A stretch of 64,000 nucleotides of DNA from Cytophaga aurantiaca DSM 3654. GTDB taxonomy: Bacteria > Bacteroidota > Bacteroidia > Cytophagales > Cytophagaceae. Under the pieces are notes generated by a model. The model made no database searches and was not told where the DNA came from. It was given only the letters and a program-made list of their open reading frames with translations. The position numbers and the translations under genes are program-made. Of this stretch, positions 56,721 through 58,585 are shown one piece after another. The stretch covers positions 62,001 to 126,000 of the forward strand of contig NZ_KB903643.1 of assembly GCF_000379725.1 (NCBI RefSeq), read 5' to 3'. Every line of letters begins with the position of its first letter. The stretch's first letter is position 1.

Positions 56721-56737
56721 TAAAATAATTGATTCCA

Positions 56738-57142
56738 ATGAATACACAACAACCCAATATAAGCTCTATAAACTTTTTTGCACTAGCATTGCAAGCAGCT
56801 TTTCTATTTTTGCTATATATAGGTTTTGACTATTCCGGTTCGGATGAATCAGCATTGTGGGCGGGAATGATATACTTAGTGCTTGCGTATGGTTTGCGTT
56901 ACTTCGTACCCATTCATCATCGTAAAGGTTTACGCGAATTGAAGCAAGGGAATTATGAAGAAGCGCTCAAGCATTTTGAAAAAAGTTATGAATACTTTTC
57001 AGCACATCCCTGGATCGATTTTTTCAGAGTGTTTACAATGTTTAGTGCGTCGAAATTATCGTACCGTGAAATGGCTATGATGAATAAATATATTTGTTTA
57101 GAAGCGTTAGGTCGGGTAGAGGAATTTTATAAAGAGTTTTGA
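56738..57142 (+). CDS. Small membrane protein with TPR-like tail
   Basis: A 134-residue protein from the ATG 56738. It has two membrane helices (about residues 10-28 and 38-56) and a soluble helical tail ending in a TPR-like segment (LKQGNYEEALKHFEKSYEYF), with a C terminus EEFYKEF. The sequence encoding this C terminus (57118-57143) is repeated once 255 nt downstream at 57373-57398 outside the gene. Function unknown. Confidence 0.7.
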   Translation: MNTQQPNISSINFFALALQAAFLFLLYIGFDYSGSDESALWAGMIYLVLAYGLRYFVPIHHRKGLRELKQGNYEEALKHFEKSYEYFSAHPWIDFFRVFTMFSASKLSYREMAMMNKYICLEALGRVEEFYKEF

Positions 57143-57398
57143 CGATCTGCTATCTAGCAAGTCTTTTATTTTCGATGATTTCAAATCAAAAACTACCCTA
57201 TCGCTGTTGTTGGTGTTTCCGCAAGAACTAAGTTATTTTAATGAGTAGAGAATAACGCGGATCACCAACAACCAACTGCTCTCAGTATTGTCTGCCTAGA
57301 TTGTTGGTGATCTGCGCAAATGCGCTTCCTCTAACGTCACATGTGCTCAGGCAGAAACACCAACAATAGCCAAGAAGAATTTTATAAAGAGTTTTGAC
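57118..57398. repeat. Nested inverted-repeat block between 26-nt direct repeats
   Basis: Direct repeats 57118-57143 and 57373-57398 differ at one position (core GAATTTTATAAAGAGTTTTG). Between them, an outer inverted repeat pairs 57203-57219 with 57354-57370 (GCTGTTGTTGGTGTTTC, one mismatch) and an inner one pairs 57256-57271 with 57301-57316 (CGCGGATCACCAACAA, one mismatch). The motif TTGTTGGTG or its complement thus occurs four times, alternating. There is no ORF. The direct repeats include the 3' end of the upstream gene, as if the block had been inserted with duplication of its target. Confidence 0.75.
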
Positions 57399-57411: not shown

Positions 57412-57960
57412 CTAATCAACATAGCCGTTATATACTATTCGTGATAGAATATTATTTTTAAGGATCAACATAACATCCGTATTGCCTTCAAAATCTGTAA
57501 CGGTTAACGTATCTCTACTTGATTGTGCATTCAATGTTTTTAATAATTCATCTCTGGAAATTCCCACTTTAATTCCTTTGGAAAGAGAAATTTCAGCATT
57601 ACGAATATCTGAACTGATTAAAATGTTTTTATCAGGTGTGCGATAAATTGTTATGTTTGATTCTTTGAAACTTAAACGTTCAATTGTATCTATTTGTCCG
57701 GCTACGAACCTATTTGCTTCAGTTGTTTTTTCAGAACTGAAATTGAAATCAACATCCGTAGTAACCTTAATTAAATCATCAGACCACGTCAATAGCAACG
57801 AATCATCTTGCAGCCAACCATCAATATCATTATCTATTGTGTCGTTCAAATCATTTTCTGGTAACGTAGTTATCGTATCAATCAGTGCATTTTCTTCAAC
57901 ATGTTGTTTGGAACAGCTGCAAAGGAGTGCTATTAAAATTAAAGTGATAATTTTTTTCAT
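57412..57960 (-). CDS. Lipoprotein of unknown function
   Basis: A 182-residue lipoprotein from the ATG 57960 (signal LILIALLCSC, Cys at residue 16). It is acidic in the linker (ENALIDTITTLPENDLNDTI), followed by a beta-rich domain with FKESNITIYRTPDKNILISS and SKGIKVGISRDELLKTL, which resembles small periplasmic hypothetical domains of Bacteroidota. No family is certain. It lies 37 nt after the next minus-strand gene in the same orientation. Confidence 0.68.
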   Translation of the reverse strand: MKKIITLILIALLCSCSKQHVEENALIDTITTLPENDLNDTIDNDIDGWLQDDSLLLTWSDDLIKVTTDVDFNFSSEKTTEANRFVAGQIDTIERLSFKESNITIYRTPDKNILISSDIRNAEISLSKGIKVGISRDELLKTLNAQSSRDTLTVTDFEGNTDVMLILKNNILSRIVYNGYVD

Positions 57961-57997
57961 GATTTTAAACAAGTTTATTGTTCGTTCATATTAAAAA

Positions 57998-58585
57998 TCA
58001 TAAACCATCTGGATGATTTGAAAGCCAATCTTTGTATTTGGTTTTATACAGATCACGGGTTTTAGTATCCGGTAATATTATGTCCATTCCTCCATCGTAT
58101 GGAACAACAATAATATTTCTTATTGTATTTATGAACATTGCCCTTGTTTCGCCATCTGCAATTTTTATTAGTAATTCATTAAAATTTCCAGATTTCCAGA
58201 TTTCGTTTTTTATACATACTTCATAATACATTGTGTAATCGCTATATTCTAACGGTCTGATTTGATGTAATGCTAAGGTATCTACTTTTATAAAATCATT
58301 TAAATTAAAATAAGAATAATCATCGTTCACTTGTGCTGATAGATCAGATTTAAATAATCCTAGGGTAATAATAAAATCATCCGTATGAAATAAGTCTGTA
58401 ATTAATGTGTTTTGTCTGTTTAATATACATTCATACTCCGCTTTATTTTCGGCATATCTTTTTGAGTCTGGTAAATAATGAATGCGAAACCACCTATCTT
58501 TAAAATAGGTTTTTAATTCATAATCTATTGGATATGAATCGGGATAAATTGTATTCCAGTATTTTATAAAATTAGCCGATGTCAT
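57998..58585 (-). CDS. Cytoplasmic hypothetical protein
   Basis: A 195-residue soluble protein without signal peptide (ATG at 58585). Aromatic- and charge-rich, with FIKYWNTIYPDSYPIDYELK at the start and RNIIVVPYDGGMDIILPDTK near the C terminus. The layout, cytoplasmic next to a lipoprotein gene, is reminiscent of SMI1/KNR4-like or DUF immunity proteins, but no match is certain. It starts 2 nt after the reductase gene stop. Confidence 0.65.
   Translation of the reverse strand: MTSANFIKYWNTIYPDSYPIDYELKTYFKDRWFRIHYLPDSKRYAENKAEYECILNRQNTLITDLFHTDDFIITLGLFKSDLSAQVNDDYSYFNLNDFIKVDTLALHQIRPLEYSDYTMYYEVCIKNEIWKSGNFNELLIKIADGETRAMFINTIRNIIVVPYDGGMDIILPDTKTRDLYKTKYKDWLSNHPDGL

Follow-up and report, generated by a model that had tools for sequence, protein, structure and literature searches.

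The structured block downstream of a small membrane-protein gene in the window (the whole stretch of 64,000 nucleotides of Cytophaga aurantiaca DSM 3654 DNA that was analysed) is very probably a REPIN, i.e., a doublet of REP hairpins, with a RAYT as its partner. This REPIN fits the atypical type, lacking GTAG, that has been reported for RAYTs of Bacteroidetes, with mobility only in trans; its family occurs in each of the three Cytophaga genomes examined. The copy of the gene's end found beyond the element has about an even chance of being a local duplication at the REPIN edge, made at insertion or later, and the explanation as a whole, combining a REPIN/RAYT system with edge duplication, is in our judgement probable. 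The way in which RAYTs spread REPs is an open question; for the Bacteroidetes type, the available part of PMC6006769 describes only atypical structures, and a search of the open-licence PMC literature returned no title describing REPs of Cytophaga. The present analysis defines one such hairpin, with covariation, and names its likely partner RAYT.

Hairpin anatomy and genomic distribution

An earlier, sequence-only reading had described a roughly 230-nt structured block with nested inverted repeats, placed between direct repeats of which the left one is the end of the gene. This description was confirmed, with refinements. The direct repeat 57118-57143 / 57373-57398 spans 26 nt with 25/26 positions identical, its left copy coincides with the 3' end of ORF 56729-57142, TGA stop included, and the lone mismatch is, from the sequence, synonymous in the frame of that ORF. 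The outer inverted arms (57203-57222 / 57351-57370, 90% of 20) and the inner ones (57256-57271 / 57301-57316, 94% of 16) were likewise recovered. The structure is real, but the structured and repeated part is confined to 57203-57370; the whole block 57144-57372 was ruled out as the mobile unit because 57144-57202 lies outside the repeated family, matching the genome elsewhere only once and weakly (26 query bases at 86%, E 0.019). The features of the locus are as follows.

57118..57143, + strand: direct repeat, left copy; last bases of the small membrane-protein gene, stop included
57144..57202, no strand: 59-nt stretch from gene end to element, outside the repeated family
57203..57370, + strand: REPIN-like element of two inverted REP-like hairpins (family alignment, covariance-model matches)
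57203..57272, + strand: left hairpin, 70 nt (model match G000:C24:119203-119272; DNA fold z -6.5)
57273..57299, no strand: spacer, 27 nt (23-30 nt across the 13 pairs of this genome)
57300..57370, - strand: right hairpin, 71 nt (model match G000:C24:119300-119370, minus strand; DNA fold z -4.4)
57373..57398, + strand: direct repeat, right copy; starts 2 nt past the last base of the element

Folding of the block gave z = -5.9 as RNA and z = -5.4 as DNA, with 0/200 shuffles as stable in either form. Alignment of the copies delimits a unit, about 71 nt long, that is found both alone and in inverted pairs, with flanks varying between copies. The unit can fold into a hairpin in which a small internal loop separates a 10-bp outer stem from a 5-bp inner stem, the latter closed by a loop of about 35 nt. 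Palindromic hairpins, often arranged as inverted doublets with fixed spacing, are a hallmark of REPs and REPINs that this family shares; the hairpin size of 70-72 nt lies outside the canonical REP range (21-65 nt, PMC6006769, as given in its available part), and the 5' foot is GC in 34/34 aligned hairpins, not the canonical GT[AG]G.

Covariation among the copies, a check proposed from the sequence alone, was analysed on 34 distinct hairpins (36 hairpin halves minus the degenerate L014_L and the duplicate L011c_L). The 15-bp stem is paired in 98.4% of cells, and 5 of its 15 pairs changed on both sides (40 cells), yielding a covariation score higher than in 500/500 shuffles and in all slid versions; the identical 15 pairs were recovered by RNAalifold. 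Two signals run counter to this result: 8/500 shuffles attain the observed five both-side-changed pairs, and the shuffles average more further pair types (9.6) than the 8 of the real alignment. Comparison with known RNA families yielded a best Rfam match of E 0.41 (23 bits vs. a gathering score of 67), and an integron attC was rejected, as only the inner arms are rightly oriented and the core is unmatched (by eye, against the consensus).

The search of the genome for further copies of the block, also proposed by that reading, was positive. BLAST returned 24 matches including the block itself, the others covering parts of query 83-259, i.e., about 57200-57376. A covariance model of the hairpin was run on this genome (G000), two genomes of the same genus (G001, an uncultured Cytophaga, and G002) and 16 other relatives. 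It yielded 40, 38 and 13 hits in the three Cytophaga genomes, respectively, corresponding to 38, 37 and 11 distinct hairpins after removal of opposite-strand duplicates; among the other 16 relatives hits were confined to G007 (1) and G024 (3), all weak. The hairpins of this genome form 13 inverted pairs and 12 singles, with five pairs in G001 and none in G002. The copies are dispersed, their number here (38) being smaller than the more than 100 given as usual in the available part of PMC2817692. In a survey of 20 of the 23 sites fetched from this genome, the gene context was tandem in 11, convergent in 8 and divergent in 1, with elements mostly at gene 3' ends, and 18/20 sites were extragenic, having no overlapping ORF of at least 80 aa; the exceptions are L011b and L018, where seemingly spurious minus-strand ORFs (112 and 94 aa, respectively) extend into the element. 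A run of N between two element copies (L012 2109-2528, on G000:C45) is perhaps a collapsed tandem array.

A likely RAYT partner

The block had been said to carry no ORF, so that any movement would need help in trans. This is supported by the lack of a recognised gene in it and by a candidate helper located between copies on another contig. PF01797 has eight hits in this genome. The RAYT ORF L011:4746-5261 (G000:C44:128245-128757), which exceeds the cut-off of that family, sits amid copies of the window's element family: one pair ends 44 nt before the gene, a second lies 2 nt past its stop, and another follows, an arrangement around a RAYT gene that is typical of REPs and REPINs. This RAYT (TnpAREP, an HUH/Y1 transposase), lying between copies of this very family, is the likely partner of the window element. 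It matches the REP-associated tyrosine transposase model NF047646 with E 4.5e-19 and 68.8 bits, below the 80-bit cut-off, which is passed by its paralogue at C24:133957 (85.5 vs. 80 bits). Its motifs NHIH and YIHNNP conform to the NH[LIV]H and YIH[QN]NP of TnpAREP subclass 2.6; FWE precedes the Y motif and IWQ follows the HUH motif, the available text of PMC6006769 not saying which W is meant. No solved structure matched the RAYT in a sequence search at E 0.01.

A second REP family (24 matches) flanks the RAYTs at C24:133957 and C2:306554, the latter with one in-frame stop; a site of this family is found at L029 1278-1376 (G000:C24:133788-133886), its RAYT being about 8 kb past the end of the window. 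Across RAYT loci of this genome and its relatives (31, minus two dropped for short flanks), a repeat shared across the gene scored above the 99% control level in 19 of 29, a set that includes weak relatives and three loci of this genome. The RAYT relatives found in G001 and G002 are not adjacent to hairpins of the window family, and thus the partnership rests on one genome. The RAYT of an order-level relative (L054, G038:C1:2230337-2233834) is flanked by a repeat containing TTGTTGGTG and CACCAACAA.

Duplicated flanks and their possible origin

Flank repeats were scored for 65 elements of the three genomes (68, minus three dropped for short flanks). Repeats scoring at least 22.5 were found at nine of them, representing seven loci (three of them doubtful), elements of one locus not being independent. 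This score was reached by 10/4115 swapped controls and by 0/1500 random intergenic points (best 15.5), the latter drawn from this window only and strongly autocorrelated. Within this genome, 3/21 elements exceeded all 404 swapped controls, and across the three genomes 56/65 elements stayed below the 99% level of the controls. Overall, the copy of the gene end in the window is not due to chance, and an enrichment of flank repeats at family members is supported. The doubtful loci C45, C69 and C112, whose flanks resemble widespread kinds of sequence (C45 and C69 by eye), count less since similar sequences seem to be widespread in these genomes. Short repeats of AAATTCCAAATAACAAA-type (L195 876-921) and AATTATGAATTATAAA-type (L220 615-645) are widespread in the three Cytophaga genomes; in addition, a Lentimicrobium contig (L139 2765-3387) has, among the matches listed, which are mostly single ones from unrelated organisms, at least three matches to GTTGTTGGTRTTYCCGC at 303-nt spacing.

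Clear flank duplications, within an overall range of lengths from 25 to 147 nt, are those of the window (26 nt), of the RAYT 3' end (35 nt), of G001:C94 (147 nt, 123 identities in 148 columns) and of G001:C29, where three hairpins are present and the end of an ORF is repeated between and after them; the repeat at G001:C29 is partly of a widespread kind, its ORF-end part being absent from those matches. At three of these loci, namely the window, the RAYT and G001:C94, the start of the second copy falls 2-3 nt past the edge of the element, which makes this edge the likely switch point of copying or joining. The stretch between the left copy and the element (59 nt in the window, 24 nt at G001:C94) is not repeated on the right, and the 59-nt gap of the window is unexplained by a simple one-step duplication.

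The element is absent from the orthologous locus in G001 and G002, i.e., from both same-genus genomes in which an empty site was sought. The two minus-strand ORFs downstream of the window element have no match at these sites at the DNA level, and the C-terminus of the small membrane-protein gene differs there as well, so that the ancestral state is not visible. Pre-duplication sites of G001:C94, C29 and C112 were sought in G000 and G002, where the genes match and the intergenic DNA is too diverged. The window's small membrane protein (56729-57142) has 132-137 aa, with a C-terminus shorter than and different from that of the 154-aa G002 relative; the G001 relative has 128 aa. The two minus-strand ORFs, at 57412-58585 between the element and an epimerase gene, encode a lipoprotein-like protein and a DUF3885 protein (PF13021, E 1.2e-33).

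A possible course of events begins with REPIN hairpins becoming single-stranded and being bound by the RAYT, which would cleave beside them and rejoin the strand, so that copies could spread in trans to extragenic sites. Synthesis or strand joining may then jump back from the element edge to the gene end close by; this could happen during insertion, or afterwards if copying stalls at a hairpin or a RAYT nick. Such edge-triggered local duplication is plausible by analogy with the SBW25 REPINs (PMC3116915) and with RAYT activity as reported in the available part of PMC8266576, namely that REPs are cut at adjacent and at some distant positions and that a free 3' end results which could prime synthesis.

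The main competing account concerns the direct repeat alone: an independent local duplication by slippage or unequal recombination, in a place that the REPIN merely marks or destabilises. We give it somewhat less than an even chance, and one version of it, in which gene end and element were copied in tandem and the second element was later lost, is a serious rival. Tandem arrays do exist, with a unit of gene end plus element repeated at the RAYT, repeated flanks around the three hairpins of G001:C29, and tandem REPIN clusters including flanks in PMC3116915 (available part). However, as the left-hand stretches of the window and G001:C94 have no counterpart on the right, this account also needs a deletion with exact ends, and in three clear cases the junction lies 2-3 nt from the edge of the element. 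The proposal that arrival of the element duplicated its target is affected differently in its two parts: the copy is indeed non-chance (nine elements vs. no random point), while a classical target-site duplication is not supported, given the distance of the left copy, the many elements without flank repeat, the variable lengths and what is stated of known IS200/IS605 members (see below). The same evidence bears on a MITE mobilised by a DDE transposase and leaving a target-site duplication of 26 nt, a reading suggested by the inverted ends, the multiple copies and the surrounding direct repeat. A target duplication of constant length abutting both ends was not found, which already contradicts this reading; single hairpins also occur besides pairs, and copies adjoin a RAYT gene, leaving the MITE exceedingly improbable.

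Hardly more credible is a non-mobile structured RNA or terminator that the host maintains. It would account for stable, covarying hairpins located mostly at gene 3' ends, but the orthologous site lacks the element in both same-genus genomes, flanks vary by copy, a RAYT gene is nearby and no Rfam family reaches its gathering score. REPs can act secondarily on transcripts, and this alternative is therefore not exclusive of a REPIN.

Under the preferred reading of a REPIN with duplication at its edge, the flank duplications would be a trace of events at element edges, testable in cultured Cytophaga. A further, speculative and on balance unlikely extension is that RAYT-driven REPIN insertion or nicking is mutagenic in these Cytophaga lineages, with a hairpin left where the two copies of a local duplication (some 25-150 nt) meet; if true, REPINs would seed short tandem duplications of gene ends.

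Comparison with known systems

Three described systems, as well as IS200/IS605 elements, whose known members are stated in the available part of PMC2817692 to make no larger target duplications, provide a frame for this family. The TIR repeats associated with RAYT-like TIRYT genes (PMC3733652, available part) are alike in having long inverted repeats that are both gene-adjacent and dispersed in the genome; they are described with a GGGGWSAS motif, and the Cytophaga family differs from them in forming separate hairpins in doublets. TnpAREP subclass 2.6 of Bacteroidetes lacks GT[AG]G; its structures are atypical and recur at other genomic places (PMC6006769, available part). The likeness extends to a Bacteroidetes RAYT with NH[LIV]H and YIH[QN]NP motifs and flanking non-GTAG structures copied elsewhere, the structures being compared by their text description, not by their sequences. 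As differences, W is followed by E here where the table lists WQ (if the same W is meant), and the HUH-to-Y distance is 73 here vs. their median of 82. The REPINs of Pseudomonas fluorescens SBW25 (PMC3116915, available part) are likewise extragenic inverted REP doublets with fixed spacing, forming clusters by RAYT genes as well as tandem clusters that include flanking sequence. Compared with them, the Cytophaga hairpins are 71 nt long with a 35-nt loop, have no GTAG and are present in fewer copies, and some single Cytophaga elements lie between two copies of their flank.
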